Below, piece after piece: positions 3,001 through 21,825 of a DNA stretch of 64,000 nt. Under the pieces are notes generated by a model, which saw only the letters and a list, made by a program, of their open reading frames with translations, was not told where the DNA came from and did not search any database. The DNA is taken from contig NZ_FAOZ01000005.1 in assembly GCF_001536285.1 (NCBI RefSeq), positions 1 through 64,000 of the forward strand, in the 5' to 3' direction. How positions within the stretch are numbered: the first letter of the stretch is position 1; the number at the start of each line of letters is the position of its first letter. Made by a program: the position numbers and the translations under genes. Origin of the DNA: Parafrankia irregularis. GTDB taxonomy: Bacteria > Actinomycetota > Actinomycetes > Frankiales > Frankiaceae.

Positions 3001-6000
3001 GCGAGGAGCCGGCGACCGGATCGTCGACGAAGTCCTCCAGCGTGGTCGTCGCCAGCTGGTCGTGGGCGGTGTAGGTGTACGAGGTGATCGTGCCGTTCGG
3101 GTCCGTCGTCGTCGCGACGTTGCCGTTCGGGTCGTAGGTCGTCGCGTAGGTCGACCAGGGGAAGCTGCCCGCGCCGATGGTGCGGTAGGTCTCCCGGTCG
3201 TCGTCGTCGTAGACGTAGCTGGTGGTGCGGGCGGTGTCACCGCCGGTGGCGTCCGAGATGGTGGTCTGGGTGAGGTTGCCGTTGGCGTCGTAGGTGTTGG
3301 TCGCGACCGGGGTGTGCGTCACCGAGGTGATCAGGTTGGTGACGCCGGGTTCGGTGATCTGCGCGGGCTTCCCGAGCTTGGTGTAGGAGGTGGTGGTGGT
3401 CACGCCGGCGGGGAAGGTGTCGGAGATCTCGGTCGACGTCAGCCGGCGGCCGAGCTCGTCGTAGGTGTAGGTGTGGACCAGCCCGGCCGGTTCCTGGTCG
3501 CGGCGCAGGTCGCCCTTGGCGTCGTAGCCCGAGGTGGTCGTCTTGCCGCCGGTGTCGGTGTGGGAGATCTCCAGGCCGCGTGGGATCGTCCCGCCGCCGG
3601 CCACCGCCGCCTCTCCGCCGGTGGAGTAGACCCAGGCCTCGGTGCGGCCGTACGGGTAGCCCGGCGTCGGCGGCGTCGTCTCGAAGACCTGGTCGCCGAA
3701 GCTGTTGTAGCTGTAGTAGGTCGCGTAGGTGTTGTCCGTCGGGGAGGCCGACCGGCCGTCCCGGTAGACGCTGATCAGGTCGTTGCGCGGGTCACCGGGC
3801 GGGCCGAGATAGTAGCTGTAGTACTCGGTGTTGACGAACAGAACATTGGCGTAGTAGGCACGGGCGACCGAACGGGCGAGGACGTTGCCGCGGGCGTCGG
3901 TCTCGGTCTGGACGATGTTGCCGTTCTCGTCGATGACCTGGTGCAGGAATCCGAGGTCGTTGTAGACGAACGTCCGGTTCCCGATGTCGTCGCGCTCGGA
4001 GATCAGCTTGCCGTCGTGGTACTCGAACTCGGTCTGGTGGGCCCGCGGGTCGGTCACTCGCACGACCGTGTTCGGGCTGGTCGACAGCACCGTGTAGGTG
4101 GTGCGGTTACCCAGCCCGTTCTCCCGCCACGCCACGGTGCCGTCGGTGTTGTACCCGATGGTCGTGTCGATGTTGCCCTCGGGCAGGGTGATCTGCCCGA
4201 GTTTGTCGTTGTACGCGTAGCCGTAGGTCGTCGGGTTGGCCGAGTGGGGGGCGGTGACCGAGGTCAGCTTGTCGCCGGAGTAGGCGTAGGTCCAGGTCAG
4301 CGCGCCACCGTGGGCGGCGACGTTCTGGGTGGACATGGCGGTGACGTGGGTGCCGGTCCAGGTCAGCGACAGTGTCCGCTGGGTGGTCAGGTTGGCCACC
4401 GAGGTCAGCCGGGCGTTGCTGTTGTAGGTCAGCTCCAGCTGCCGGCCGGCCGCGTCGGTGACCACTGCCAGCCGGCCGTCGGAGCGGAACGTGTACGCGC
4501 TCCCGGACTTCTCGGTCAGCGTCGTCGCTGCGGTCGCGGAGACGTCGTCGATCCGCCCGGACCCGGTCGCCTCCGCGAACGGGCCGACGCGGCTGCCGTA
4601 GACGACCGCCGGGTCGTTCACCGCCAGGATCTGGGTCCCGTTGCGCTGGACCCGGATGTCCGGCCCGTCCGTGATGACCGTCAACACGTCCGACGCGGTG
4701 CAGCACTGCCCCGCGCTCGACGTCGCGACCACCGTCTCGGCCCCACCGACGCGTTTGACCAGCTGCCACGTCCCCGCCGACGGCTGGGCCACCACCCGCC
4801 AGTAGTTGTTCGGGTCCGCATAGCGGAACGCCAGCCCCAGCCCGGTCTGCGCCACCGGCATCTTGAAGGAGAACAGGCCGTCCGCGGCCGCGGACACGGT
4901 CGCGACGTTGCGGTTCCCCGACGCGGCGGCCAGGTAGGCCGCGTTCCCGGAAATGCCCCAGGTGCCGTTGCCCAGCCCCGGTAGCGACTGCGTCTGCCAC
5001 TCTTCACCGGTGTCGCCCGTCCCCAGTTCGGTCGACGAGTTCGCCCGGGTGAAGCTGTCGCGGTGCTGGTCGTCGACGATCGTGACCGACCCGATCCGCC
5101 CGGTACCGGTGGCCTGCGCGAACAGGCCCGCCTGCGTCGCGGTCGAGAACTGCGAGTCGGTGACCGACCCAACGACCTGGTCGTTGCGGTAGACCGTCAG
5201 GACCGAGCCCGCCATCCGCACCGCGTACGTGTCACCCGCGGCGCAGCAGGCGCCGGTGAACGTCGCGACCGTCGACTTCGTCCCGCCGACCCGCTTCGCC
5301 AGGATCAGCGCGTTGCTCGAGGGCTGCGTCTGCAGGATCCACAGGTTGTTGGCGTCCTGCACCCGGAACGCGACCCCGAGATTGTCCTGCGCGACCGGGG
5401 CGGTGAACCGGACCAGCCCCTCGGACGGGGCGGGCATCACCGCCGTGCCATACGTCCCCGACACCAGGTAGGCGTTGTTCCCGTTGATCCCCCACGTGCC
5501 GGACAGGACCTGCCAGGTCTCACCCGTGTCCGCGTCGCCCAGCGTGACGGTCGAGTTCGCCGCGGTGAACGACGCCACCTGCGGGCTCGGCGCCTGCATC
5601 AGCGAGTAGTAGCCGTCCTGCGGCGTGAACATGCCCAGGCCGTTCCGGCCGAACCTGGTGTCCCGTCCGTCCGGGTAGCCCACGACCAGGTTGCCCTCAC
5701 CGGAGTCGTCGGCCCGGACGCTCATGTCCCACTGCGACGACCAGCCCGCCCCGAACATGCCCACCGACGTGTTACCGCTGTTGTACGTCCGGGTCAGCCC
5801 CAGCTCGGGCCCCACTCCGTCCACCGAGACGTCCGTCGACGACGACGCGTAGCTCCGGATCAGCGGCGACACCGAATCCACCGACGGCGCATAGGGGTCC
5901 CCGCCGAAATGCGCGCTCGTCGCCGGCTCCGGGATCTGGGTGTAGATCGTCATCGGCGCGGTCCACGCGCTGGTGACCCCGCCCGACTTGACCCGCCCCC

Positions 6001-8338
6001 GCCAGTAGTACGGATACCCCCAGCTCAACGCGTTCGCGGGCACCCGCCACGACGAGCTCGTGATGAACCCCCCCGACGACCAGCAGAAACCGCTGGCCGC
6101 GTCCGGGTTCGAGCAGATCTGGAACTCATACGTCGGACTCGACTGGTTACTGGAAAGCGTGAGCTCCGGGCGGAGAGTGTTGACCCGCTCCGCGTCCAAC
6201 GGCGTCGAACCGGTCACCTGCACCCCGGTCGCCGGCGGCGCGACCAGCGCCACCGGCAGCATCGAAACACCGTGCGTGGAGAAGAACGCCCCACCCGACC
6301 CGGTGTCCTGCATGTCGAACTTGACGATGTAACTACCCGCCGGCGGTGGGCTGACGATCGCCTGCACGTCGACCGACTGCCCACGCGCGACCGCCACCGG
6401 CAGATTCGTCTGATATCCCTGCGCCACGATTTCGGTGGCCCCAGTGATGTCATACACGTGGTACGACAGCTTGTACTGGCCGCCAGCCGGCCAGGTGTTC
6501 TTCCCTCGGTTCGTCACCCGAACCTTGATCTTGCCCGGCTGGGTCGCGGTCAACGCCTGGTCCCACACCGGCGACCCCGACGGCCACGCGTATGCCGCGT
6601 CATACGGCGACCAGGTGATGGTCATCTTCGGCCGGTGGTCCCCCGACGTCCCCGCCGCCGTGCAGGCACAGTCCTGCGAGTCGAACTCCTTGTATTCGGC
6701 GACATTCCACGACGACGCCCGCACCGACAGGCCCTGGTTCGCCGTGGTGCCGTCGTTCCAGTCCTCGACCAGCTCCGTCAGCCGCGAGTCGGAGAACGTC
6801 TCCCAGCCGGCGTCACACCCCGTGTTCCCGCTCTGATGCGAGAAAGTGCCCTGCGCGACCTCACCGCCGACCGTCGCACCCGGCCACACCAACGTGGTGC
6901 CGTTCCACGCCTGCGTCACCTGGTACAACGACACCGGATGCGCAGTGCACGCGTCGTTCGAGGCCGTGTTGAACAGCGACACCTGCGCCGACAGGACGTT
7001 CGTGTTCGCCAGCGCCGAATTGTTCGGGAAATGCAGGTAGCCGTGGTTCAGGTCGCCGCTGGCCCGCAGCCCGACCCGCAGCTTCCCGTCCGACGGCTGC
7101 GGCGTGCTCGGCGTCGCCGACGACACCCAGGTGTCATCGGTACCCGCCGCCAACTGGGTGACCGTCGGGTCCACCCGTACCGGGAACACCCGCTCCGGCG
7201 CCGCCAGCCAGTCGGCGTCCAGGTCGACCCGCAGCGCCGGCGCACCGCCGTCCGTCCCCTCGACCAGGCTGTAGGTAACACCTTCCGACGTCGCCGGCTG
7301 CGGCGCCGAGTCCTCCATCCACCCGCGCGGGATCAGCGCGACCGGCGAGCCCGACCCGTCGGAGAGAACCACCTGGCCCTGCTCGTCCAGGCTCGCGGTC
7401 AGCCCTTCCAGCGCCAGCGGGAACGTCCAGCTCGTCGGCGCGTCCGGCGACCGCAGGACGATGACCTCCTTGAGCCCCGACCCCGTCGCCGACAGCTCCA
7501 GATCCGCCTGCTCCCGCACCTCGGCGAACGTCACCGACTGCGCGTCGGCCTCCCCCGGCGACGCCGCCGCCCCCTCCAGCGCGAACCCCGCCGACACGTC
7601 CTCACCCAGCTCGACCCGGGCCAGCTGCGGATCGTCCGCCTCCTCGGCGAACGTCACCGGCGCCTCCACCGCCCGCGCCTCGAACCCGCCGCCGCTCTGC
7701 TCCACCAGCGCGGTGTCCACCTCCGCCCACTCGCCCTGGGCATCCCTGAACCGCACCGGCTCCGCCGACAGCTCCGTCGAATACGTCCCGTCCGGGTTAT
7801 GGAACACCGTCGCGTTCTCCGACCGGGCCGACTCGACCTCCACCCGGCCCGACTGCACCGTGCCGGGATCCCGCGCCCCCGGCGCCAGCTCCTCCTCCGA
7901 CGGAAGCTCCGCGCCCGCGGGCACCTCCGGCAGCTCCACCTCCCCCTGCGGCGCGTCCGGGCCGGTCGGGTGCACCACCCGCCGCGGCTCAACCTCCGGC
8001 GTCACCGGCACCGCGCCCTCGACCGGCTTCACCTGCGACGCCAGCTCCGCCTCCCCCGGCGCGGCGTCCCGCGACGTCTCCTCCGCCGCTACCTGATGCT
8101 CCCGACCCTCCGCAGTGCCATCCGAGGACTCCGGCAGCTTCACGTCCCGGAACGGGTTCCGTTCCGAGATCGGCACCAGCTTCGGCTCCGTCACCCGGTC
8201 CAGCACCACCAACGCGAACCCGGTCAGGAACAGCGCCGGCACCAGCAGCAGCGCCACCCGGCGCAACCTGCGGTGCCGCCGCAACATCCGATGGCCAAAC
8301 GACAAAGCACGACGCGGGGAAGGGTGCCGGGCGGTCAT
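1..8338 (-). CDS. Giant RHS/YD-repeat surface protein (C-terminus beyond left edge)
   Basis: An open frame of about 2,779 codons runs from an ATG at 8338 to the left edge with no stop. I checked that codons at 1585 and at the edge are in the same frame. It has a basic N-terminus and one membrane segment at about residues 28-46, then an acidic spacer. A DNRLRE-like secretion region follows (about 390-560), then an RHS N-terminal region (about 850-900) and two successive concanavalin/LamG-like domains (about 925-1255). From about 1270 onward there are many YD repeats such as YDAAGN and YDPNGN. RHS proteins build a shell that usually holds a variable C-terminal toxin. That part would lie outside this window, so toxin and immunity gene cannot be assigned. 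It is far longer than most family members. Transcription runs leftwards with no close upstream partner. Family call is secure; role as a contact toxin or adhesin is inference. Confidence 0.93.
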   Translation of the reverse strand, partial: MTARHPSPRRALSFGHRMLRRHRRLRRVALLLVPALFLTGFALVVLDRVTEPKLVPISERNPFRDVKLPESSDGTAEGREHQVAAEETSRDAAPGEAELASQVKPVEGAVPVTPEVEPRRVVHPTGPDAPQGEVELPEVPAGAELPSEEELAPGARDPGTVQSGRVEVESARSENATVFHNPDGTYSTELSAEPVRFRDAQGEWAEVDTALVEQSGGGFEARAVEAPVTFAEEADDPQLARVELGEDVSAGFALEGAAASPGEADAQSVTFAEVREQADLELSATGSGLKEVIVLRSPDAPTSWTFPLALEGLTASLDEQGQVVLSDGSGSPVALIPRGWMEDSAPQPATSEGVTYSLVEGTDGGAPALRVDLDADWLAAPERVFPVRVDPTVTQLAAGTDDTWVSSATPSTPQPSDGKLRVGLRASGDLNHGYLHFPNNSALANTNVLSAQVSLFNTASNDACTAHPVSLYQVTQAWNGTTLVWPGATVGGEVAQGTFSHQSGNTGCDAGWETFSDSRLTELVEDWNDGTTANQGLSVRASSWNVAEYKEFDSQDCACTAAGTSGDHRPKMTITWSPYDAAYAWPSGSPVWDQALTATQPGKIKVRVTNRGKNTWPAGGQYKLSYHVYDITGATEIVAQGYQTNLPVAVARGQSVDVQAIVSPPPAGSYIVKFDMQDTGSGGAFFSTHGVSMLPVALVAPPATGVQVTGSTPLDAERVNTLRPELTLSSNQSSPTYEFQICSNPDAASGFCWSSGGFITSSSWRVPANALSWGYPYYWRGRVKSGGVTSAWTAPMTIYTQIPEPATSAHFGGDPYAPSVDSVSPLIRSYASSSTDVSVDGVGPELGLTRTYNSGNTSVGMFGAGWSSQWDMSVRADDSGEGNLVVGYPDGRDTRFGRNGLGMFTPQDGYYSLMQAPSPQVASFTAANSTVTLGDADTGETWQVLSGTWGINGNNAYLVSGTYGTAVMPAPSEGLVRFTAPVAQDNLGVAFRVQDANNLWILQTQPSSNALILAKRVGGTKSTVATFTGACCAAGDTYAVRMAGSVLTVYRNDQVVGSVTDSQFSTATQAGLFAQATGTGRIGSVTIVDDQHRDSFTRANSSTELGTGDTGEEWQTQSLPGLGNGTWGISGNAAYLAAASGNRNVATVSAAADGLFSFKMPVAQTGLGLAFRYADPNNYWRVVAQPSAGTWQLVKRVGGAETVVATSSAGQCCTASDVLTVITDGPDIRVQRNGTQILAVNDPAVVYGSRVGPFAEATGSGRIDDVSATAATTLTEKSGSAYTFRSDGRLAVVTDAAGRQLELTYNSNARLTSVANLTTQRTLSLTWTGTHVTAMSTQNVAAHGGALTWTYAYSGDKLTSVTAPHSANPTTYGYAYNDKLGQITLPEGNIDTTIGYNTDGTVAWRENGLGNRTTYTVLSTSPNTVVRVTDPRAHQTEFEYHDGKLISERDDIGNRTFVYNDLGFLHQVIDENGNIVQTETDARGNVLARSVARAYYANVLFVNTEYYSYYLGPPGDPRNDLISVYRDGRSASPTDNTYATYYSYNSFGDQVFETTPPTPGYPYGRTEAWVYSTGGEAAVAGGGTIPRGLEISHTDTGGKTTTSGYDAKGDLRRDQEPAGLVHTYTYDELGRRLTSTEISDTFPAGVTTTTSYTKLGKPAQITEPGVTNLITSVTHTPVATNTYDANGNLTQTTISDATGGDTARTTSYVYDDDDRETYRTIGAGSFPWSTYATTYDPNGNVATTTDPNGTITSYTYTAHDQLATTTLEDFVDDPVAGSSPRDVVLESLAYDPAGRLASATDAEGRTVRHLYWLDGLPFREILDGYRPPDLVNGLLSGPGAYDVILAEHAYDGAGNEVTTTTGGGLRTTSTEYDAAGRATATIADPEGVARRTDLTYDAGDNVTAKDFSAAGTTATGRVEDTFDDNSRPTSRTIFGDGVQRFTSAVAYDQRGEVTSTVDPRGYVPGGAPNSAYVTDQVTDAAGNLVQTVSPPVQVEENGAAAATDRPSAEVGYNTFGEPTHARDARNQVTVTSYNHLGQVTQKTYPSYTRPSGGAAITPTEQWTYDSNGNPTTHIDTRGKTTTTVYDRRDRPVAITDPQVTGQAAAGVTRRIYDDADNLLTEVDQEDGWTFYAYDDLDRRWATTATEQWLTQTFTTYTVYNDAGDLVRVLTPGNVATGASATSDYNGAGDLTAVHDELGKTTTYAYDFAGRRTSTTDPLGRETRTTYDRAGRATTVGEYSPTDVLLRSTSTGYDAAGNVISQTDANGHPTTATFDARNQQRTITVPVNGSTNNTTSIGYDLAGNTTRVTDGRGNPTITTYNPLGLAEKVIEPSTTAHPNLADRTWTSSYDAAGQPITVVAPGGITRTSTYDELGRLTAESGSGVGTASASRALSYDLLGQVVAVNHPGGTETFSYNDRGLITGAAGPGGASSFAYDSTGRMSQRTDPAGTSNFTYTARGELATVAGTVTGGTRTLGYDDAGQITSVTYSGATRTFGYDNLGRTTSDTLTAGSTVRRTQTYTYDNNDNRLTTVIGPAGVAGAGTQSYGYDWADQLTSWTNQSSVTTTYAWDAAGNRTSKNGVTSTFDQRNRLTSDGTATYTYTPRGTLDTKIQGSTVTTTVFDAFGRLVADNQGGTAQNYTYDGLDRLATRNSAPFTYAGLEKEPATDYSSSFSRDPDGDLVAVGSSAGNWATLTDTHGDLVAAFTTAGALTDSRSYDPFGDPVVAGNPAVHVGFQGSWTDPDTDRVSAQARWYTPGTGTFASRDTASLPISGTAAANRYT

Positions 8339-8884
8339 CACAGCTCCGAAACGCGCGGGGAACAGGCACGAGCCACGCAGAAACACGCAGAACACGACCC
8401 CCGGGCGGACAGCCCGACGGCCACACACACCCGGACCCGGCCGCCGTTTTCCCCGCCGACGAGGACGAGGAGGGCACGGCAGACTCACCGGCGTGCGCAC
8501 ACCACAAAGAAACGAGACCAGGGAACGGCCAGGCCGCCCCGGCCACGCGGACACAGGGGATGCGGCAGTACCCGCCGGCAGGTGCAGGCGGTGAAAGGCC
8601 GGCGCCAGTGCCGGTGACCTGCCCAGCCACACCAGCTGACAGGCGGCTGGCGATACGCGGGCAGCACAGATCGATAGCGATGGAACGGGAAGAACTAAAG
8701 ACACGCCGGCACAGCGCCGTACACGGCGAAAACCCACCGGCAGCCAGGATGAACCTGGGGCAACCGGCAGGACAACGAGCAGGGAACCCAGGCCGCCGAA
8801 GCAGCCTTGAAGTGGGCGCCGCAAAGCATGGCACGCCCAACAATCAGGTGCAAGAAACTACTCAAAGTCCTTGCTGGAGATCAA

Positions 8885-9755: not shown

Positions 9756-10004
9756 TCAGCCGGCCGTCGGCACCGCCGCGGTCTCCTCGACGACGGTGAA
9801 CAGGCCACCGTCAACAGTGCTCCAGTCGCCGACGGAGCGGAAACCGAGAGTCGCGAGCAGCTTGTCGGCGGCCTCGCTGAGGGCGGGGACGTCGGCGGCG
9901 TCGAGGCGGCCGACCACGGTGCCTTCCGTGTCAGCCTCGCCACGGACGATCCGGACGTCGAGGGTGTCAGCGTCGACGAACGCGTAGGTGTTCGTGTCGG
10001 TCAA
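9756..10004 (-). CDS. Small acidic protein, 82 aa, function unknown
   Basis: The start is TTG at 10004, chosen because a perfect AAGGAGG lies six bases upstream; longer in-frame extensions have no ribosome site. The protein begins with a Thr/Asn/Tyr stretch, is acidic overall (many Asp and Glu, few basic residues) and contains a VIVGRLDAAD-like segment. I recognise no domain, signal peptide or membrane segment. It is monocistronic: a strong terminator follows within 20 bases and the nearest upstream gene is divergent and 950 bases away. The combination of ribosome site, coding bias and terminator makes this a real gene. It could be a small regulatory or RiPP-like protein, but nothing in the sequence proves either. 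Confidence 0.75.
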   Translation of the reverse strand: MTDTNTYAFVDADTLDVRIVRGEADTEGTVVGRLDAADVPALSEAADKLLATLGFRSVGDWSTVDGGLFTVVEETAAVPTAG

Positions 10005-10950
10005 GGGAGCCTCCTTGGGACATGGGAGCGATCTGTTCGATTCGTACGAGGGCCAGCCTCTCGCAGCGACACCGACCCGAACTACGCGCCTCCCGAGGTG
10101 TCGGACCGCACCGGCATCTGGCGTGCCGCGGTCGTCCTGCGAGACCAATCCCAAACCGATGGCGGCCAAATCCGGTCCAACCGCAGATGCGAATGCGCTC
10201 CACAGTAGATATCGTGCGGCGCCAGTCCGCGACCGGATGATGTGCGGCCCAGTGCGGTTGGGAACTGCCGGTCCGTGCCTCTGACGTCCTATCGGCGGGG
10301 TCGACACCAAGCCGGTCGACGAAGAAGGCCCGCGCGGTGCCGACCACGCCATCGCCGACTCGGACGATGCGCCTGACGTCCACGCGCCGTCTGATCAGCG
10401 CCGGGGCACTCGCCCGAAGCCCACGCGGTCGTCCGAACCCCGACAAAGGGGCGGCGCCGATCGAGGTGGGCGCCTACCCACCGTGAGCCGACGCCGCAAA
10501 CGCTGATGATGGTGGTCTTCGGCAGAGGCACCGTAGCTGTACGGCGACGGGCCGGACGGCGGCCGGGACGCACGCTGGCTTGCCACGCACCTGGAGAAAG
10601 AGCAGCGATTTTGGTCGGCAGCGCTACTGGTAGCGCCCGCGGTCAACCTGTCGGCCGTCGGCCCATTGCTCAGCAGCCGACAACCGTCGACACCTTTGGC
10701 TGGTCATATCCCGTTCGGCCAAGGATCGGCCACCAATAAAAGTTGACCGATCGGGATTTAGGAGAATCCATCGAGTGGCAATGATTCGCGATCCCTCCGG
10801 CCGCACTGCAGCACGAGGCGATGGATCGATTGCGGGTACGAATCGGTTCGACGCATTACTTGTCTGGGTTTCTCACTTCCTGCGAACATCCACTGGAAGG
10901 GATCCAGCTTCTCGAGAAACGGCCATCGGCGAATCACGGGAGCATCCGCA
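10005..10950. other. Intergenic region between divergent genes
   Basis: About 950 bases with mixed composition. A plus-strand frame from GTG 10775 has a GGAG upstream, but it overlaps the sulfotransferase start and encodes no recognisable protein, so I do not call it. The stretch must hold the promoters of the small gene at 9756-10004 and of the plus-strand biosynthetic cluster. I see no definite operator. Confidence 0.4.
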
Positions 10951-12078
10951 GTGGACAAGGTCGGAACAGTTGACGACATTCACGCCGCCGCCACGGCCCT
11001 GACCGGCCTCACCGATTTCGGTCCACCCGATTATCACGAGGGGCTTGAGATCATCCTGGCCGCCTACCAGGACGAGGCCGACCTCACACCGCTCGGCGTC
11101 GCGATGGCCCGCGACGAGTTGCGCGACATTCTGGTGGCCCGCCTGTTCAGCGAGGCCGGCTGGCGGCGCTATCCCGAGTACGCCGAGGTTCCGATCGAAC
11201 GGCCGCTGTTCATCATCGGAATGCCCCGAACCGGCACGACCACGCTGCACCGGCTGCTGACCGCCGATCCGGCCCATCAGGGCCTGGAACTGTGGCTGGG
11301 CGCCGCTCCGCGTCCCCGTCCGCCGCGCCCGAGCTGGGCCGACGACCCGATCTTCCAGCTCGTCCAGGGGGCGATCCAGGCATTCCTGGATCGGAACCCG
11401 GGCTATCTCGGTATCCACAACCGGGACGCGGCGAAGGTCGAGGAATGCTGGCTGCTCACCCGTCAGTCGATGATGTCGGCCTTCTTCGAGTTCACCGGGC
11501 ACGTGCCGACCTACTCGAGCTGGCTGGCCGGGCAGGACTGGACGGCCGCCTACGAGCGCCACCGCCGCAACCTGCAGCTGATCGGGCTGCCCACGCCCGG
11601 CCGGACCTGGGTGCTCAAGTACTCCGGCCACATGCTGTGCCTGGACGCCCTGCTGGCCACCTATCCGGACGCGCTGATCGTGCACACCCACCGCCGGCCG
11701 GCCAGCACCGTGCTCGGCTCGGCCTGCAGCATGGTGAGCCGGCTCTCGGCGGGCAAGTCGACCAGCTTCCACGGCGACGCGATCGGCCCGGCCCTGCTCG
11801 AGCTGGCCGACCGTGCCCTGACCCGCTTCGCGGCGGACCGGGCCCGCCAGGACCAGGCCCATTTCCACGACGTGGAGTTCGACGAGTTCACCGCCGACCC
11901 CCACGGGGTCGTCGCCGGAATCTACGAGCGGCTCGGCCGCCCGGTGCCCGAGCACGCCCGCGCCGCCATGGCCGAGGTGCTCGCCGAGGACGACCGGCTG
12001 CGCTCCCACCGTTATGACCTGGCCGAGTTCGGCGTCACCGCCGAGCAGGCCGACGCCCGCCTCGCCGGTGTGGTCTGA
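10951..12078 (+). CDS. PAPS-dependent sulfotransferase family protein
   Basis: A 375-aa protein starting at GTG 10951 behind an ACGGGAG-like ribosome site. The 5'-phosphosulfate-binding loop GMPRTGTTTLHRLL sits near residues 91-104, the hallmark of the Sulfotransfer_3-type family. A second conserved region (KYSGHMLCLDAL then VHTHRRP) matches the 3'-phosphate-binding Arg/Ser element. Length is normal for the family. No signal peptide, so it is cytosolic. It is first of four plus-strand genes (alpha-oxoamine synthase, SDR, MFS exporter) spaced 35-90 bases, likely one transcription unit. The family transfers a sulfonate group from PAPS to a hydroxyl or amine. Its substrate here is probably the product of the neighbouring enzymes, but that is inference. 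Confidence 0.85.
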   Translation: MDKVGTVDDIHAAATALTGLTDFGPPDYHEGLEIILAAYQDEADLTPLGVAMARDELRDILVARLFSEAGWRRYPEYAEVPIERPLFIIGMPRTGTTTLHRLLTADPAHQGLELWLGAAPRPRPPRPSWADDPIFQLVQGAIQAFLDRNPGYLGIHNRDAAKVEECWLLTRQSMMSAFFEFTGHVPTYSSWLAGQDWTAAYERHRRNLQLIGLPTPGRTWVLKYSGHMLCLDALLATYPDALIVHTHRRPASTVLGSACSMVSRLSAGKSTSFHGDAIGPALLELADRALTRFAADRARQDQAHFHDVEFDEFTADPHGVVAGIYERLGRPVPEHARAAMAEVLAEDDRLRSHRYDLAEFGVTAEQADARLAGVV

Positions 12079-12120
12079 CCGCCCACCGCACCGCACCGAC
12101 GCACCGCATCGAACGGAGAC

Positions 12121-13371
12121 ATGATGACCACGACGGCGCCCACCGGGACGGCGGAAGCGGCCCTGGCCCGGTGGGGTTTCTCCGAATGGATCGCGCAGAC
12201 CCGGCGGACCGGCGAGTTCATCGACACCCCCGAGCTGGACGGGGTCAACGACGCGGTCATCAGCGTCGACGGCCGCCCTGTGGTCAACTTCTCCGGCATC
12301 GGCATCCTGGGCTGGCAGCATGACCCGGACGTCCGCAGGGTCTTCGCCGCCGCGGCGGCCGAGTACGGCCTGGTCGTCGGCGGTTCGCGGCTGGTCCAGG
12401 GCCTCTCCCGGCCGCACCTGGAACTCGAGAAGCTCGTGGCTGAGATCACCGGCCAGGAGAAGGCGCTCACCTTCGCCACCGGCCTGCTGGCGAACCTCGG
12501 TTTCGTCCACGCGATGAAGGCCCGGTTCTCGTTCGCCGACGAACCCGGGGTGAACAACTCCGACATGGTCCTCGTGCTCGACTGGGACAGCCACTGGAGC
12601 ATGTGGAAGGCCGCCGACGGGTTCAAGTACGGGCGCAACCTGTTCGCCTTCGAGCACAACGACGTCGCGGCGCTGCGGACGCTGCTGGCCGAGCTGGGCG
12701 ACCGGCGGGTCGTCGTCGGTTTCGAGACGGTCTACTCGTCCGACGGCTCGATGGCGCCTGTGGGCGAGATCCTCGATGCCTGCGAAGAGTTCGGGGCGGT
12801 CAGTTTCGTCGACGACGCCAACGGGTTCATGGCGTACGGCAACGGTGGCCACCGGTTCGCGGCGGAATACGAGGCGCTGCGCCGCGCCACCTTCCGGATG
12901 GTGTCGTTCGGGAAGGCCGTCGGCCTGTCCGGCGGCGCCGTCGTCGGGCCGGCGGACGCCATCGACGCGTTCCGTTTCCTGTCAGGCACGTCGATTTTCA
13001 CGACGAACATCCAGCCGCCCACCGCGCAGGCCATCACACACGTGCTCGAGCGGATGCGGCGCGACCCGTCGGTGATGGAGCGATATCTCGACCGGATTGA
13101 CCGGCTGCGGGAACGTCTGATCGCGGTCGGCTGCGCCATCAATTCCACGCCGACCTTCGTCACCTCGATCGCCGTCGGTTCCAACGAGACCGCTGTGCGG
13201 GTACGGCGGGATTTTCTCGAGCGCGGCTACCTCGTGCCGATGTTCGTCTATCCGGCGGTCCGGAGGAACGAGGCGGTGATCCGTCTGCTCGTGAACAATC
13301 GGTTGTCCGACGAGCAGCTCGACGGATTCGTCGACACGCTGGCCGAGCTCCGCACGATCCACGGTTTCTGA
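12121..13371 (+). CDS. Alpha-oxoamine synthase (PLP-dependent, KBL/SPT/CqsA-like)
   Basis: A 416-aa fold-type I PLP enzyme behind a CGGAGA ribosome site. The PLP lysine is K265 in VSFGKAVGLSGG. His158 in DWDSHWS would stack on the cofactor, and the DDANGFMAYG segment (231-240) gives the Asp that binds the pyridine nitrogen. GGSRLVQGLSRPH (87-99) matches the family substrate loop. Members condense an acyl-CoA or acyl-ACP with an amino acid, losing CO2, to make an amino ketone. Examples are KBL, BioF, serine palmitoyltransferase and the CAI-1 synthase CqsA. A biotin role is unlikely because no bio genes are present. The adjacent SDR could reduce the ketone, giving a sphingoid-like amino alcohol. 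Family certain, substrate unknown. Confidence 0.88.
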   Translation: MMTTTAPTGTAEAALARWGFSEWIAQTRRTGEFIDTPELDGVNDAVISVDGRPVVNFSGIGILGWQHDPDVRRVFAAAAAEYGLVVGGSRLVQGLSRPHLELEKLVAEITGQEKALTFATGLLANLGFVHAMKARFSFADEPGVNNSDMVLVLDWDSHWSMWKAADGFKYGRNLFAFEHNDVAALRTLLAELGDRRVVVGFETVYSSDGSMAPVGEILDACEEFGAVSFVDDANGFMAYGNGGHRFAAEYEALRRATFRMVSFGKAVGLSGGAVVGPADAIDAFRFLSGTSIFTTNIQPPTAQAITHVLERMRRDPSVMERYLDRIDRLRERLIAVGCAINSTPTFVTSIAVGSNETAVRVRRDFLERGYLVPMFVYPAVRRNEAVIRLLVNNRLSDEQLDGFVDTLAELRTIHGF

Positions 13372-13413
13372 CAGCGCCCAACCTGCCGCGGGCCGGGCCG
13401 AGCGAGGGGCACC

Positions 13414-14376
13414 ATGGATTCCCAGTCACCAGAACCTGCGTCACCAGACCCTGCGTCACCGTCCGCGGCGGTCCCCCGGCCGCTCACCCCGCCGCGCACC
13501 CCGTTGGTCGCCCCACTGGCCGCCCCGCTGGTCGCCCGACCGGCGTCTCGGCCAGTCGCCCTGGTCACCGGGTGTTCGAGCGGCATCGGCCTGCGCAGCG
13601 TCCCGGCGCTGGTCCGCCGCGGGTTCCACGTCGTCGCCACCCTGCGCGACCTGAGCCGCCGCGGCGCGCTCGACAAGGTCGCCGACGAACACGTCACGGT
13701 GCTCCGGTTGGACGTCACCGACCAGCGGACGATCGACGAGACCGTCGCCGACGTCCTGGCCGCGACCGGCCGTATCGACGTACTGGTCAACAACGCGGGG
13801 ACAGCGCCGCCGAACTTCGTCGAGGAGGCACCGCTGGCGCAGTGGCGATCGGTGTTCGAGACCAACCTGTTCGGCCAGGTCGCGATGACCAACGCCGTCC
13901 TGCCCGCGATGCGGGCACGGGGCCGGGGCCGAGTGGTGATGGTCTCCAGCGTGGGCGGGCGAGCGCCGACTCCCCTGCTCGGCGTCTACTGCGCCTCGAA
14001 GTTCGCTCTCGAGGGGTACGCCGAGACCCTGCGGCTGGAACTGCGGCACTCGGGCATCGACGTGGTGCTCGTCGAACCGGGCTCCTACCGGACGCCGATC
14101 TACGACACGCCGCTGCTGGACGCCCCTGTCCCGGTCGGGTCGCCCTACGCGGACGACTTCGTCCGGCTGCGCGCGTTCTACGGCGAGTACATCGCCCACC
14201 ACCTGCGTGACCCCGACGAGGTCGCGGAACTGGTCGCGACCCTGGCCGCCCGCAGGCACCTGCGCCTGCGTCATCCGATCGGCACCGACGCCTGGATCAA
14301 ACTCGCGCTGCACGCCCTGCTCCCCTGGCCGGTCTACGAGCGGCTGACCCGCCGGCTGATCGGCCTGCGGCCGTAG
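13414..14376 (+). CDS. Short-chain dehydrogenase/reductase
   Basis: A 320-aa classical SDR. It has the NAD(P)-binding TGCSSGIG motif near residues 51-58, NNAG near 125 and the catalytic YCASK, with an upstream catalytic Ser in MVSSVGG. The first about 45 residues are a Pro/Ala/Ser-rich tail absent from most SDRs, so the true start might be further in, though GAGGGGCACC lies just ahead of the ATG. It sits 42 bases after the oxoamine synthase, as in sphingolipid-type pathways where a 3-ketosphinganine reductase follows the condensing enzyme. The likely reaction is NADPH-dependent reduction of the amino ketone. That assignment is inferred from position; other hydroxy/keto substrates are possible. 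Confidence 0.87.
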   Translation: MDSQSPEPASPDPASPSAAVPRPLTPPRTPLVAPLAAPLVARPASRPVALVTGCSSGIGLRSVPALVRRGFHVVATLRDLSRRGALDKVADEHVTVLRLDVTDQRTIDETVADVLAATGRIDVLVNNAGTAPPNFVEEAPLAQWRSVFETNLFGQVAMTNAVLPAMRARGRGRVVMVSSVGGRAPTPLLGVYCASKFALEGYAETLRLELRHSGIDVVLVEPGSYRTPIYDTPLLDAPVPVGSPYADDFVRLRAFYGEYIAHHLRDPDEVAELVATLAARRHLRLRHPIGTDAWIKLALHALLPWPVYERLTRRLIGLRP

Positions 14377-14461
14377 CCGCCGCCGGGCGGCCGAGCACCC
14401 ACGGCGCGTAGTTCCGAGCTTCTGACCTGGTATTTCGTCGCCCACAACGATCGGAGCGCTG

Positions 14462-15997
14462 ATGGCGTCCACTGGGCAGCCACCTGGCGTCGACGTCGTC
14501 CGCGGTGCTGGCGACGCGGTGTCGGGAGGGCTGGCCGCCGGCCGGCGGCGGGTGGTGCTGGCGATCTGCTGCACAAGCGTGTTCGTCGTCGCGATGGACG
14601 CGACGATCCTCAACGTCGGCCTGCCGTCGATCAGGAGCGACCTACACGCCACGGACTCCGGGCTGCAGTGGGCCGTGGACGCCTACAGCCTGGTCATGGC
14701 GAGCCTGCTGCTGTTCTCCGGCTCGATGGGCGACCGGTTCGGACGTAGGCGCGTGTTCCGAACCGGACTGGCACTCTTCTCGATCGGCTCGCTGCTGTGC
14801 AGCCTGGCGCCCGGGCTCGGTTGGCTGACCGCATTCCGGATGGTCCAGGCGGTCGGCGGCTCGATGCTCAACCCCGCCGCGCTGGCAATCATCACCAACA
14901 CCTTCACCGATCACCGCGAACGAGCGCGTGCGATCGGCCTGTGGGGCGGGATCGTCGGTCTGAGCCTGGCGCTTGGGCCGGTTGTCGGCGGGCTGCTGGT
15001 CGACACGATCGGCTGGCGGTCGATCTTCTGGCTCAACGTACCGGTCGGCGCCCTCGCGCTGATTCTCACCGGACGGTACCTGCCCGAGTCGCTGGCGCCG
15101 CGGGCCCGGCGTTTCGACCCGGCAGGCCAGGTACTCGTCGCCGTCACCTTCGGTACGGTCACCTACGCGATCATCGAGGCGCCGAAGGTCGGCTGGGCCT
15201 CCCCACCGACAGTCGCCATGTTCATCGCCAGCGCACTCGCTCTCGCCGGGCTGGTCGCATGGGAGAAGCGGCGCCCGGACGCCCTGTTGGATGTGCGGTT
15301 CTTCCGCAGCGCACCGTTCTCCGGGGCCACGGCCATCGCGATCTGCGCGTACGCGGCAATGGCCGGATTCCTCTTCCTGAACACGCTCTACCTCCAGGCC
15401 GTGCGCGGCTACTCCGCGTTGGACGCCGGCCTGCTGACGCTCCCGATGGCGGCCGTCGCGACGCTGACGTCGCCGATCTCCGGTCGCCTCGTGGCCAGCC
15501 GCGGCCCCCGACCAGCACTGATCATCGCCGGGATCGCGATACCCGCCAGCGGAGTCATCCTGTCCTTCCTGAGCGGCTACGAGAGTCTCGCGCCGGTCAT
15601 CTGCGCGTACGTGCTGTTCGGCGTCGGGTTCGGAATGGTCAGCGCGCCGACCACGAACATCGCGGTGTCCGGCATGCCACTCGCCCAGGCAGGCGTCGCG
15701 GGGGCGATCGCCGGTACCAGCCGGCAGATCGGCATCGCCCTCGGTGTCGCGGTCTTCGGCTCGGTGGCCGCCCATCGCGTCACAGATGGCTCCGGAACGG
15801 CGGCCATCGACCCAACCAGCGCACCACCCTGGTGGATCATGACCGGCTGCGGACTGACCATCGCCGCGCTCGGCGTTCTCACCACCGGCCGCTGGGCGCG
15901 GGAAACCGCAACCCGGACCGCAGCGCTCTTCACCCCCCGGCCGGCGCCACCCGAGCCCGAGGTGCCATCCCCGCCACCGCCCGCGCCGAGCAGGTAA
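14462..15997 (+). CDS. MFS drug/metabolite exporter (EmrB/QacA, DHA2 type)
   Basis: A 511-aa integral membrane protein with about 14 hydrophobic segments. Motif A, GDRFGRRRVF, lies in the loop after the second segment, and the antiporter motif C region is LSLALGPVVGGLL. The N-terminus begins with the family pattern CCTSVFVVAMDATILNVGLP. The C-terminal tail is a short cytoplasmic Pro-rich sequence. It is last in the plus-strand cluster and would export the cluster product by proton antiport. A hairpin just downstream (16047-16073) separates it from a convergent gene. Family is certain; the link with the product of the upstream enzymes is by position. Confidence 0.9.
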   Translation: MASTGQPPGVDVVRGAGDAVSGGLAAGRRRVVLAICCTSVFVVAMDATILNVGLPSIRSDLHATDSGLQWAVDAYSLVMASLLLFSGSMGDRFGRRRVFRTGLALFSIGSLLCSLAPGLGWLTAFRMVQAVGGSMLNPAALAIITNTFTDHRERARAIGLWGGIVGLSLALGPVVGGLLVDTIGWRSIFWLNVPVGALALILTGRYLPESLAPRARRFDPAGQVLVAVTFGTVTYAIIEAPKVGWASPPTVAMFIASALALAGLVAWEKRRPDALLDVRFFRSAPFSGATAIAICAYAAMAGFLFLNTLYLQAVRGYSALDAGLLTLPMAAVATLTSPISGRLVASRGPRPALIIAGIAIPASGVILSFLSGYESLAPVICAYVLFGVGFGMVSAPTTNIAVSGMPLAQAGVAGAIAGTSRQIGIALGVAVFGSVAAHRVTDGSGTAAIDPTSAPPWWIMTGCGLTIAALGVLTTGRWARETATRTAALFTPRPAPPEPEVPSPPPPAPSR

Positions 15998-16096: not shown

Positions 16097-17350
16097 TTAG
16101 CGGTTCGCGGTGGCGATCTGCTTGTTGAGCTGGATGGGTGGCGTGTTGAAGTCGAACGGCGGCTTGGGAACCCAGCTTCGGATGACGCCTGGCTCGAAGA
16201 TCAGGCAGTGGGTGGAGCCGCCGTACTGGAAGTAGCCGATCTCGTCGCCCTTGGTGACACGCTGTCCGGCGCTGACCCCGATCTTGCAGGAGGAGATCTC
16301 GGCCATGCCGACGAAGACGCAGGCGACGGTGCCGATGTTCTTGTCGTCGCAGGCGATCACGATCACGGCGCGGGTCGCGACCTGGCTGATGTAGCCCTGG
16401 GAGTCGTTGGGGCCGCCGGGGTCGAGTCCTTCGGCTTCGAGGTCGGAGTAGTAGGTGCCGTCCAGGTTGTAGGTGGTGACGATGGTGCCGGTGACGGGTG
16501 CGTGCCAGCGGTGGTAGTTGTAGGCGCTGAGGAATGCCTGGTAGATGTCGCCGCCGACGAACTGTTCGGCGAGTGCCCGGTGTTCGCTGGTGAAGATGTC
16601 CAGAAGGGAGTATGGCTGGGCCTTCATCCAGAAGCGGTCGGTGAGCTGCACGTTGTTCTGGATGTTGTAGGGGGTTGCCTCGCAGGCACTGACGATGACC
16701 GTGTCGTCGCCCGGTCCATCTACGGGCCGGACGCCTTTTTTGAACACTCGGGTGAAGAACGCGTTCCACGACGCGAAGCCGTAGTACGGCTGGGTCTCGT
16801 CGTGGACGTAATCTGCTATGTGGATGTAGGCGTCGGCCTTCTGGGAGAACCATCCGCCTGCGTCGTCTTTGGTGAGGTACGTCCGCGAGCCGGCTCCGCT
16901 GAGGAACTCACACCAGTACTCCAGCACGGCCTTGAGCTGGCCGTTCAGTTGCGGGAAGCGGAACAGCGGGAAGCCGGCGGGCATGCACATCGGCCAGTCG
17001 AGCAGCGCGTTGAGGGGACAGCCGACCAGCTCGGTCGTGTCGAACGGCGGGGCGTAGGTCATGAGCTCGTCGATCAGAACCATGAGCTCGTCGATGGTGT
17101 GGTAGCCGAGGTCGTAGCCGGCCGCGATCGCCTGCTCGATCGCCTGGGTGAGGTACATCCGCAGCACAGGGTCGGTGTTCACGAGGGTCGCGAGATCCTG
17201 CACGGGCGGTGTGAGCCGTGCGCCGGGTGCTCGTTTTTTGGCTTTCTCGGCCAGGTTGCGGCGGAAGGCGACGAGTGCTTCCTCGCGGACGGGTAGCCAC
17301 CGCCCGCGCCGGCTGGCCTGGACTGCAATTGTCTGGGCATCGTTGTTCAT
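16097..17350 (-). CDS. Phosphatidylserine-decarboxylase-family enzyme, PSDC/PsiD-like
   Basis: A 417-aa protein. The C-terminal half holds the pyruvoyl self-cleavage motif GGST in QYGGSTHCLIFEPG, with the preceding beta-rich core (NYHRWHAPVTG, an HWHAPV-type element). The N-terminal half has the PSDC-type domain (NALLDWPMCMPAGF, then GGWFSQKA) found in a subfamily that includes the fungal L-tryptophan decarboxylase PsiD. Ordinary bacterial Psd proteins lack this N-domain and are shorter. No membrane anchor is visible, so it is probably soluble. The family matures by serinolysis into beta and pyruvoyl-bearing alpha chains and decarboxylates a carboxylate next to an amine. Because of the architecture I favour a free amino acid rather than phosphatidylserine as substrate. 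It converges on the sulfotransferase cluster. Confidence 0.85.
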   Translation of the reverse strand: MNNDAQTIAVQASRRGRWLPVREEALVAFRRNLAEKAKKRAPGARLTPPVQDLATLVNTDPVLRMYLTQAIEQAIAAGYDLGYHTIDELMVLIDELMTYAPPFDTTELVGCPLNALLDWPMCMPAGFPLFRFPQLNGQLKAVLEYWCEFLSGAGSRTYLTKDDAGGWFSQKADAYIHIADYVHDETQPYYGFASWNAFFTRVFKKGVRPVDGPGDDTVIVSACEATPYNIQNNVQLTDRFWMKAQPYSLLDIFTSEHRALAEQFVGGDIYQAFLSAYNYHRWHAPVTGTIVTTYNLDGTYYSDLEAEGLDPGGPNDSQGYISQVATRAVIVIACDDKNIGTVACVFVGMAEISSCKIGVSAGQRVTKGDEIGYFQYGGSTHCLIFEPGVIRSWVPKPPFDFNTPPIQLNKQIATANR

Positions 17351-18329: not shown

Positions 18330-18671
18330 TCAGTGCGGCTGGTCGAGTTGACTGGCGACGAGCGGGAACTCTGCCTTCAGGAGCGTTGCCAGTTGCTCCT
18401 GAAGCTCACCCAGCGCGGTCGTGGCGATGCGCCACACGATTGACCAGTCGACCTCGAAGTACGCGTGAACAGCGATGTTACGGAAGCCCGTGACGGACCG
18501 CCACGGCACATCCGGCCAGCGGTCGCGGATCTCGGGCGAGACTCGCCCGGCCGCCTCGCCGATCACCAGGAGTTTCTGCAGAACGGCGCTCTGGATCAGG
18601 TCGCTCGCCAGGAAGGCGGCCTCGTCGACGTCCTGGACGAACGTCGTCGCGGCGGCCGCCGCTTCGATCAT
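18330..18671 (-). CDS. hepT: HepT-like HEPN ribonuclease toxin (DUF86)
   Basis: A 113-aa all-alpha protein. It carries the DUF86 pattern SAVLQKLLVIGEAAGRVSPE and the catalytic HEPN motif RNIAVHAYF (RX4HXY). These features define HepT, the toxin of MntA-HepT modules, in which the nucleotidyltransferase MntA neutralises HepT by AMPylating the tyrosine of RX4HXY. The ATG at 18671 is the only possible start, because an in-frame TAG lies 12 bases upstream. There is no ribosome site, so translation probably depends on coupling with mntA, which ends 19 bases earlier. An 18-bp palindrome fills that gap. Confidence 0.88.
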   Translation of the reverse strand: MIEAAAAATTFVQDVDEAAFLASDLIQSAVLQKLLVIGEAAGRVSPEIRDRWPDVPWRSVTGFRNIAVHAYFEVDWSIVWRIATTALGELQEQLATLLKAEFPLVASQLDQPH

Positions 18672-18674
18672 GTC

Positions 18675-18692
18675 GACGAGCTAGAGCTCGTC
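18675..18692. promoter_or_regulatory. Perfect palindrome in the mntA-hepT junction
   Basis: GACGAGCT-AG-AGCTCGTC is an 8-bp inverted repeat with a 2-bp centre. It overlaps the last base pair of the mntA stop codon and ends three bases before the hepT ATG. In RNA it would form a hairpin just ahead of the toxin start, where a ribosome site would normally be. A translational brake or an internal operator are both possible. Confidence 0.5.
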
Positions 18693-18981
18693 ACGCCGCA
18701 TAGAGGACCCGAGCCTCCGCGAGTACCCGGTCGCGGATGACCCACTTCAGCCGGGATTTGGGTACCAGGTCGACGTGCCGACCGACGATCTTTTCGAGCT
18801 CGTCCCGAAGATCGACGATCTCGAAGCCAAGCTTCGAGTCGGGCGCCAGTACATACAGCAGGTCGACGTCCGAGGAGTCGGTGTCGTCGCCACGAGCCAC
18901 CGAGCCGAAGACGGAGAGCTCGGCGACCCCGTAGCGTCGGCACACCTCGGCGATCCGGCTGTCACGAAGGTCGACGGTCAC
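18691..18981 (-). CDS. mntA: MntA-like nucleotidyltransferase antitoxin
   Basis: A 96-aa minimal nucleotidyltransferase. The active-site signature is GSVARGDDTDSSDVDLLY (GSX10DXD type), with the supporting HVDLVPKS segment. I chose GTG 18981 because a GGAGGCG lies upstream and the family N-terminus (RIAEVCRRYGVAELSVFGS) begins right after; a longer frame adds only unrelated residues. MntA-type proteins AMPylate the HEPN toxin encoded next. The gene leads the two-gene mntA-hepT operon. It sits among other toxin-antitoxin genes and relics. Confidence 0.88.
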   Translation of the reverse strand: MTVDLRDSRIAEVCRRYGVAELSVFGSVARGDDTDSSDVDLLYVLAPDSKLGFEIVDLRDELEKIVGRHVDLVPKSRLKWVIRDRVLAEARVLYAA

Positions 18982-19088
18982 ATCGCCATTATCGCCTCCA
19001 GGCAGCCACGACCGCACGGCTCGGGCACCGCCTCGCGGGCTCTGGCGTGCTTTCGGCGGCACCAGCCGACAATCGAGTCCGGTGATCT

Positions 19089-19688
19089 TCAAGCGTCAAG
19101 GCGAATGTGGCGTAGCTGGACGGCGAGTTGATATCCACGTCGCAGGAGCCACCCTGACGTGTCGAGACCAAGCGTGAACCCGGCGTGGCTTGCGATGTCA
19201 TCCGTCACGGCGGAGATCGACAGGGCGTCGGTGCGGAGATGGCGGGCGAACTCGGGGGCTCGCAGGACGTCGAGGGCGTGGTCGAGTTGGCGGGCGCTGT
19301 AACTGCGGGACGTTTCCCCGCGCCGGTGGATGCGTCGAATCATCGTCGCGCGGTCGGCAAGAAGCGTGACATGAACGACGCGGTGTCCGGCGAGGTGGGC
19401 CGAGGCCGTCAGCTCGACGAGCACGCCGGGGTCGAGGATGGTCATCGGCACGATCACCGGGTCCTCGGGCCCCCGGAGAGCAAGGTGGAGCATCTCGCTG
19501 ACCGCCTGGCGCCACAGCGGCACGTCGCGGAAGTCCATGCGCCGGGGCTTCGGGAGCATCCGGCGCATTGCGAAGCCGAGGTGCTCAGGGTCGCTGACGA
19601 AGCTTCCAGGCAGTCTGCGGTGCAGGTTGTGGGCGACCTGGGTCTTCCCGACGGCGTTCGGACCGTTGATCCAGATGAGGGTCGCCAC
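19089..19688 (-). CDS. TmrB-like P-loop nucleotide-binding protein
   Basis: About 199 aa. The N-terminus LIWINGPNAVGKTQVAHNLH is a Walker A kinase loop of the TmrB (tunicamycin-resistance ATP-binding) type. It is followed by the family pattern FVSDPEHLGFAMRRMLPK and DFRDVPLWRQAV. A lid-like RRIHRRGETSRSYS follows near residue 140. I chose GTG 19688 to match the short N-terminus of TmrB; an in-frame start at 19730 would add 14 residues with no better ribosome site. The family includes adenylate-kinase-like proteins and some antibiotic phosphotransferases, so the substrate is open. It lies immediately downstream of the truncated PIN gene and may be transcribed with it. Confidence 0.75.
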   Translation of the reverse strand: MATLIWINGPNAVGKTQVAHNLHRRLPGSFVSDPEHLGFAMRRMLPKPRRMDFRDVPLWRQAVSEMLHLALRGPEDPVIVPMTILDPGVLVELTASAHLAGHRVVHVTLLADRATMIRRIHRRGETSRSYSARQLDHALDVLRAPEFARHLRTDALSISAVTDDIASHAGFTLGLDTSGWLLRRGYQLAVQLRHIRLDA

Positions 19689-20944: not shown

Positions 20945-21331
20945 GTGACCGAGCTACTGCTGCTACGCGACGCCGAGGCCCTGCACCGCGCCCTGGCGAC
21001 ATCCGGTGGCGAGGTGCAGGTGGCGTTCTCGCGCGAGACAGCCGAGCTGGTCTCCCGCCTGCTCGACGCCCGGGCGAGAGGCGAGGAGCTCATCGCGACC
21101 CCCCGCGCCGCCGAGGTCACGCCGACGGAGGCAGCGGTGCTGCTGGGGATGTCACGCCCCCAGGTCCGCAAACTGATGGACCGCGGCCTGTTGCAGTTCC
21201 GCAAGGTCGGCACCCACCACCGTGTCCGGGTCTCATCGATCCGAGCGTTCCTGGAGAACGAGCGCCCACGCCGGCGCGACGCACTCACCGAACTGGCCGC
21301 CATACAGAACGACCTCGGCCTGACCGAATGA
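20945..21331 (+). CDS. HTH antitoxin of an intact HTH-PIN pair
   Basis: A 128-aa protein starting at GTG 20945. The helix-turn-helix is TPTEAAVLLGMSRPQVRKLM (about residues 60-80), followed by a wing with THHRVRVSSIRAFLENE. It is a shorter paralogue of the protein at 19853-20380. Its stop overlaps the ATG of the PIN toxin by four bases (ATGA), so the two are translationally coupled. Antitoxins of this class bind both their promoter and the PIN active site. Family call good; specific target of the toxin unknown. Confidence 0.85.
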   Translation: MTELLLLRDAEALHRALATSGGEVQVAFSRETAELVSRLLDARARGEELIATPRAAEVTPTEAAVLLGMSRPQVRKLMDRGLLQFRKVGTHHRVRVSSIRAFLENERPRRRDALTELAAIQNDLGLTE

Positions 21332-21825
21332 CCGCCATCGGCGACGCCGACCTGATCCGCGTCGTCCTCGCGGACGCGAACGTGCTCTACTCCCGCGTCC
21401 TACGCGACTACCTTCTCTACGCCGCCGACCAGGAGATCATCACCGTCGCCTGGAGCCCTGCGATCCTCGCCGAGGCCGTCGAACACCTCAGACTGAACGT
21501 GGCCCACTTCGACCATGCCGCCGCCCAGCGCCTGGTGACAGCGATGAACCGCGCGTTCCCCTTCGCCGAGATCGAGCCCTCCGACGAGGATTTCCGTGCA
21601 CTCGCCGACGTGTGGCTACCAGACGAAGACGACCGGCATGTCCTGGCCGCCGCCGTCGCCGCGGAGGCGACCGTGCTCTGCACCTGGAACGTCAAGGACT
21701 TCCCGGCCGACGCCGCGGCGGTCGCCGGAATCGAGATACTCACCCCCGACGAACTGTTCTGCCGCCTCGTGGCGGAGTACGAGACACAGATGATCGCCGC
21801 GCACCGAACGGCCGTCCGGCCCTGA
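21328..21825 (+). CDS. PIN-domain ribonuclease toxin
   Basis: A 165-aa PIN protein. The first catalytic Asp is in VLADANVLYSRVLRDYLLYA (about residue 16). The middle Glu is in SPAILAEAVEHL, and the third acidic cluster is LPDEDDRHVLAAAVAAEA, followed by CTWNVKDFP, the normal PIN layout. All acidic positions are present, so the toxin should be active. It forms a coupled operon with the HTH antitoxin upstream. PIN toxins cut RNA, often tRNA or mRNA, with Mg2+. It provides the full-length comparison for the truncated PIN at 19734-19853. Confidence 0.88.
   Translation: MTAIGDADLIRVVLADANVLYSRVLRDYLLYAADQEIITVAWSPAILAEAVEHLRLNVAHFDHAAAQRLVTAMNRAFPFAEIEPSDEDFRALADVWLPDEDDRHVLAAAVAAEATVLCTWNVKDFPADAAAVAGIEILTPDELFCRLVAEYETQMIAAHRTAVRP

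Follow-up and report, generated by a model that had tools for sequence, protein, structure and literature searches.

A sulfotransferase-oxoamine synthase gene pair in Parafrankia irregularis and its relatives points to sulfated amino-alcohol lipids

The genes investigated in this study are located in a 64,000-nucleotide stretch of the genome of Parafrankia irregularis, here termed the window, where four open reading frames follow each other on the forward strand at distances of 42, 42 and 85 bp. The first of them, which begins with a GTG start codon, encodes a sulfotransferase (ST) of 375 residues (10951-12078), the second an alpha-oxoamine synthase (AOS) of 416 residues that is a member of a distinct clade (12121-13371), the third a short-chain dehydrogenase/reductase (SDR) of 320 residues with a variable region of about 45 residues at its start (13414-14376) and the fourth a DHA2/EmrB-type MFS exporter of 511 residues (14462-15997). 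These assignments are reflected in Pfam matches to Sulfotransfer_3 (PF13469, E 1.3e-45), Aminotran_1_2 (2.3e-21), adh_short (1.1e-49) and MFS_1 (1.6e-59), and the tight, same-strand run that had been described in an earlier note on this DNA was found as such. A GC3 of 0.87-0.91 and dN/dS ratios of 0.14-0.37 with respect to Frankiaceae orthologues, which in all four cases indicate purifying selection, identify the four reading frames as real coding genes. Between strains, nucleotide similarity spans the block and ends at its edges, with unrelated flanks beyond, thus fitting the expectation for a mobile cassette. On the upstream side, blastn similarity begins at position 10646 in the comparison with the orthologous block of genome G018 and at 10810 in the comparison with that of Frankia sp. 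R82, delimiting a conserved upstream or promoter region of the block (10646-10950, + strand). The cassette in the window itself contains neither an acyl-activating enzyme nor an ACP. As the earlier note had stated, there is no bio operon near the synthase, and the genome's own BioF-like gene is found on another contig (C22).

Other parts of the window carry genes of different character. A 2940-residue RHS-repeat protein with DUF6531 (5-8824, - strand) is likely a polymorphic-toxin-type or cell-surface protein. The protein encoded past the exporter (16097-17350, - strand) contains PSDC and PS_Dcarbxylase domains and resembles phosphatidylserine decarboxylases, in a form that is also known from fungal tryptophan decarboxylases; it was considered as a member of the cluster and rejected, being located on the opposite strand and near no other ST-AOS copy. 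Two adjacent small reading frames (18330-19092, - strand), which by eye resemble a pair of HepT-type and MNT-type nucleotidyltransferase proteins, are followed by an HTH protein that resembles excisionases and by a protein with a PIN domain (20945-21825, + strand). The region between 28000 and 44000, which is mostly of lower GC content (down to 0.53 compared to about 0.70) and which includes a phage-type integrase (32841-33983), is a probable integrated mobile element.

The sulfotransferase contains the PAPS-binding motifs PRTGTTTLH (residues 92-100) and THRRPASTVLGSACS, which are invariant among 8 orthologues and where PRTGTTTLH and THRRP..S both align with 2zq5, the former as 5'-phosphosulfate loop and the latter as 3'-phosphate motif. 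With both motifs present, the protein is a predicted PAPS-dependent sulfotransferase. 2zq5, which we take to be the mycobacterial sulfotransferase Stf1, is its best solved relative (phmmer E 9.6e-116). Both proteins are of the Sulfotransfer_3 type and match over their full length, although 2zq5 was deposited as an uncharacterised protein, and we know of no pairing of the latter with an oxoamine synthase. The presence of three APS-kinase domains in the genome implies that PAPS is available to the enzyme.

In a comparison of the synthase with NCBIfam equivalogs, no model scores above its cut-off. The highest score is obtained for BioF (TIGR00858, 213 bits at a cut-off of 426), followed by SPT (165 at 500 and 147 at 640), ALAS (144 at 339), CqsA (NF005526, 126 at 428) and KBL (TIGR01822, 119 at 493). 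In a 57-row tree, the protein is located within an 11-row clade of ST-linked synthases (support 100/98), which nests in a 32-row clade (100/100) with a stem of 1.78 changes per site that is set apart from BioF, KBL, SPT, ALAS and CqsA. AU tests reject a grouping with BioF (p 0.029) and with KBL (p 0.0065), and the synthase thus lies outside both clades, whereas a firm place inside either of them would, according to the earlier note, have refuted its proposal. Scores, tree and AU tests together rule out an assignment as BioF or KBL. A misread housekeeping enzyme with unrelated neighbours, as might be suspected from the first rank of the BioF model, is consequently hardly conceivable at a score of half the cut-off and with the BioF-like gene of the genome residing elsewhere. 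The comparison with SPT and CqsA that had been proposed along with this test gave a less clear-cut answer: the synthase does not group with SPT in either of two trees, but such a grouping is not rejected by the AU test (p 0.06), and the neighbour of the wider clade is ALAS in one tree (89/96) and CqsA in the other (90/82), on long branches. The AlphaFold2 model (pLDDT 90) matches the fold of SPT, ALAS, KBL and BioF across about 390 residues, these families providing the best PDB matches (TM about 0.81-0.88) and oxoamine synthases occupying all top rows in Foldseek and VIA-align. The model also matches SulA (7u7h, Z 39.9), to which the sequence shows no special closeness, and a plasmid search has revealed a single nearer relative, from Eleftheria terrae (46%). 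Owing to one exchanged active-site residue, described below, we have filed the protein as a variant with an AOS fold rather than as a standard member of the family.

The catalytic residues of the synthase are retained with one exception. The Schiff-base lysine Lys265 (12913-12915), the PLP-stacking His158 (12592-12594; SulA His140), Asp231 at the pyridine nitrogen (12811-12813; SulA Asp217) and the substrate carboxylate-binding Arg388 (13282-13284; SulA Arg376), all encoded on the + strand, align with their counterparts in BioF, KBL, SPT, ALAS and CqsA and are invariant across 30 relatives, as is Asn56 (12286-12288, + strand), which by its position is the probable equivalent of Asn53 of SulA and SPT. 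The roles of the equivalent residues are known for SulA and SPT, where Asn53 is involved in carboxylate activation (PMC9304779). These residues strongly suggest that the enzyme joins an acyl thioester and an amino acid by decarboxylative condensation. The exception concerns position 234 (12820-12822, + strand), where all members of the clade carry Asn, an observation that is partly circular for loci found with the first of the two contig scan patterns DDANGFM and GIGILGWQ, compared to His in 25 of 25 aligned reference synthases. The Frankiaceae copies and those of G181 and Eleftheria were found without a motif pattern and all carry Asn. In SulA, the equivalent His220 contacts the 3'-hydroxyl of PLP and it was described as conserved across the family (PMC9304779). 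Its replacement by Asn could change the chemistry of the enzyme.

A further position concerns the origin of sulfur. The order of a synthase followed by an SDR and the match to the fold of SulA would both be compatible with a cysteate-using sulfonolipid synthase of the capnine type. However, the residue equivalent to SulA Lys281, whose alignment position was deduced from PMC9304779, is Thr295 in the window, with Ala prevailing across the wider clade, which makes the use of cysteate unlikely. A cysteate route is thus rejected as a likely function, and since it would also render the sulfotransferase superfluous and the sequence is not specially near to SulA, we consider it very improbable.

The relationship between both genes is reflected in their distribution. 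The sulfotransferase is found directly upstream of the synthase on the same strand in 12 of 12 copies from 11 genomes of Frankia, Pseudofrankia, Nocardia, Amycolatopsis and Streptomyces, which bears out the co-occurrence that the initial proposal had expected. Among 35 Frankiaceae genomes, which include Frankia sp. R82, AgB32 and AgB1.9 and Pseudofrankia sp. BMG5.36, a search with the synthase has retrieved 9 copies in 8 genomes, and an independent search with the sulfotransferase has identified 9 copies in precisely these 8, while none of the remaining 27 contains either gene alone (Fisher 4e-8 for both present in 8 versus both absent in 27, uncorrected for relatedness). When 84,980 species genomes were scanned, further copies came to light in Nocardia alba, Amycolatopsis sp. 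GM8 and Streptomyces nanshensis. Since, in a 394-genome sample of the class searched at E 1e-100, the synthase is limited to Frankiaceae and one distant relative, the system is rare and scattered. In a genome of 9.5 Mb that encodes 7 Sulfotransfer_3 proteins, and with unrelated flanks, the pairing in 12 of 12 copies exceeds chance.

The order of all four genes is less widespread. It is found in three genomes only, those of the window, Frankia sp. R82 and Frankia sp. AgB32, the latter two being the only ones to retain an orthologue of the exporter. G018 contains the pair and the SDR without exporter and additionally a second copy of the pair, whereas in G003 (5.43 Mb, single contig) the pair is followed by a different MFS protein with 35% identity to the exporter of the window. 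An orthologous SDR follows the pair in five genomes and is absent from the Pseudofrankia, G003 and Nocardia copies. The four-gene order put forward in the earlier note thus stands everywhere with respect to its first two genes and in its full extent only in these three genomes. The conserved unit is the ST-AOS pair, and the four-gene run, which we rejected in this role, is its local version. The second copy in G018 (L019, contig 159) is located between reading frames that by eye resemble a transposase and a recombinase, with neither SDR nor exporter, and may reflect the way in which the pair moves.

The genes that accompany the pair in relatives share a common theme, which is the supply of long-chain acyl groups and not the metabolism of biotin or threonine. 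Downstream of the run in Frankia sp. R82, the same strand encodes a carbamoyltransferase and carries an AMP-ligase-like reading frame of the fatty-acyl-AMP ligase (FAAL) cluster, as well as an ACP gene and a reading frame resembling P450s. In three Pseudofrankia genomes and in Nocardia alba, the pair is found with a carboxylic acid reductase (CAR, 1628 bits at an equivalog cut-off of 1300), an AMP ligase, which in Pseudofrankia is closest to FAALs, and a CMAS-type methyltransferase; two of the Pseudofrankia genomes and Nocardia contain a ferritin-type fatty-acid desaturase (FA_desaturase_2) beside the pair, Pseudofrankia harbours P450 genes in its vicinity, and Amycolatopsis has only the CAR of this set of partners. 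In Streptomyces nanshensis, the order is a FabA-like protein, PfaD (633 bits at a cut-off of 449), the pair with its SDR, and an O-acyltransferase-like protein, with ST, AOS and SDR sharing 57%, 67% and 66% identity with their equivalents in the window. These fatty-acid-handling neighbours and the PAPS supply of the genome agree with the use of an acyl substrate and with the sulfation envisaged in the earlier note. The Pseudofrankia clusters (L024:3043-3828, + strand, and L030) also encode a 262-residue protein with no Pfam match and a weak ferritin-like match, which is possibly a diiron oxygenase.

These neighbours also bear on a different assignment of the steps, in which the sulfotransferase would act on the acyl chain or another partner, or in which the Asn-type synthase would carry out other PLP chemistry within the same single pathway. 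The clade-wide replacement of the PLP-binding histidine would be in line with the latter and the P450 and desaturase genes of relatives, which could provide other hydroxyl sites, with the former. Still, the remaining catalytic residues are kept within an intact fold and the pair is also kept where no P450, desaturase and CAR genes accompany it, and we thus regard such an assignment as rather unlikely.

The wider clade of Asn-type synthases spans Actinomycetota, Pseudomonadota, Cyanobacteriota and Bacillota. In a cyanobacterium, a fusion of an AMP ligase and a carrier domain directly precedes the synthase and in Streptomyces an ACP directly follows it, which, together with the FAAL-type ligases of relatives, suggests a carrier-bound acyl donor. 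A conserved cluster in many Streptomyces and Pseudonocardiaceae (L043-L056, L058-L062 and L065-L066, e.g. L051:2278-14222) encodes a fusion of an AMP ligase and an aldehyde dehydrogenase, an acetolactate-synthase-like ThDP enzyme, a ketosynthase and a condensation-domain protein, followed by the Asn-type synthase, an ACP, a FabG-type SDR and an MFS protein, and in Streptomyces NRRL S-118 (L057) the synthase is located next to a PKS. In Pseudomonas and Vreelandella (L033, L049 and L063, around 10000-12400), the synthase is followed by a FemAB-like acyltransferase in a locus adjoining conserved regulator and transporter genes, and the same acyltransferase is found just downstream of the synthase, on the opposite strand, in Crossiella. 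This neighbour suggests an N-acylation of the amino ketone. The conserved biosynthetic settings of these synthases support a biosynthetic role for the entire clade.

Collectively, the pair and its fatty-acid-handling neighbours point to sulfated amino-alcohol lipids of a hitherto undescribed family. In the proposed pathway, the synthase would condense an acyl thioester, probably bound to a carrier protein, with an alpha-amino acid to yield a long-chain 2-amino ketone and CO2, the SDR would reduce the ketone to an amino alcohol, and the sulfotransferase, in light of its invariant pairing, would transfer sulfate from PAPS to a hydroxyl group of the amino alcohol or, less likely, to its amine. 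The anionic product would finally be exported by the DHA2 transporter, whose assignment as MFS exporter, already made in the earlier note, is upheld by a score of 264 bits for TIGR00711 (EmrB/DHA2) at a cut-off of 230. Relatives would join the pair to other acyl suppliers, such as FAAL, desaturase, methyltransferase, CAR or a PUFA-type synthase. We consider such a sequence of condensation, reduction, PAPS-dependent sulfation and export, built around the ST-AOS pair and with the sulfate retained in the product, to have a slightly better than even chance of being correct.

Alternatively, sulfation could serve as a transient activation, where the O-sulfate of the amino alcohol is lost by intramolecular displacement to form an aziridine or by elimination to form an alkene or enamine, leaving a product free of sulfate. 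A vicinal amino alcohol and a sulfotransferase would together constitute the substrate set for a Wenker-type ring closure, and some bacterial sulfotransferases are known to activate leaving groups. However, the cassette in the window encodes no dedicated cyclase or lyase, the exporter would suit either product and a search of the open-licence literature gave no relevant precedent, which together makes a transient sulfate improbable. With respect to family scores, the synthase lies far below the SPT cut-offs, and the SDR, at 155.6 bits, lies below the cut-off of 400 of the KdsR equivalog (NF049977). The serine-derived backbone implied by the term sphingoid of the earlier note and an O-sulfated end product are therefore putative.

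The proposed system resembles known pathways in part. With the SPT pathway, which consists of SPT and 3-ketodihydrosphingosine reductase, it shares the fold, the set of Lys, His, Asp, Arg and Asn residues and, in the window, the order of synthase and SDR, while differing in its distinct clade, the Asn in place of the O3'-contacting His, the low KdsR score and the constant presence of a sulfotransferase. CqsA, the CAI-1 autoinducer synthase, has the same fold and joins the Asn clade, not firmly, in one of two trees, but is 24% identical to the window protein, retains the His and has no sulfotransferase. The sphinganine cluster PfSgaAB of Pseudomonas fluorescens MYb115, where SgaB was compared with SPT by its authors, similarly combines an oxoamine synthase in a secondary-metabolite cluster with a dedicated acyl supply, although without a sulfotransferase (PMC12134224). 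SulA, the cysteate acyl-ACP transferase of sulfonolipid synthesis (PMC9304779), has in common the fold, the presumed use of acyl-ACP and the suggested sulfur-bearing amino lipid, whereas in the window sulfur would come from PAPS via the sulfotransferase instead of cysteate, with the equivalent of Lys281 being absent. In the open-licence literature, we have found no paper that describes this gene pair or in which an oxoamine synthase is linked to a FAAL, a CAR or a sulfotransferase, and a search for sulfated sphingoid and amino alcohol terms has returned nothing.

Sulfur-bearing sphingoid-like lipids have been known chiefly as cysteate-derived sulfonolipids of Bacteroidota. Our tentative proposal, which we would place short of even likelihood, is that a catalytically distinct, Asn-type branch of oxoamine synthases with carrier-bound acyl donors has become coupled to a sulfotransferase in one actinobacterial lineage, leading to new PAPS-sulfated sphingoid-like lipids that are not derived from cysteate. 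The ST-AOS pair and the DDAN motif provide a simple hook for genome mining, and the change from His to Asn makes the role of the contact to PLP-O3' in the AOS family directly testable. If true, actinobacteria of soils and plant symbioses would have arrived at such head groups independently, by means of a sulfotransferase, and a metabolite class would be added to Frankia.
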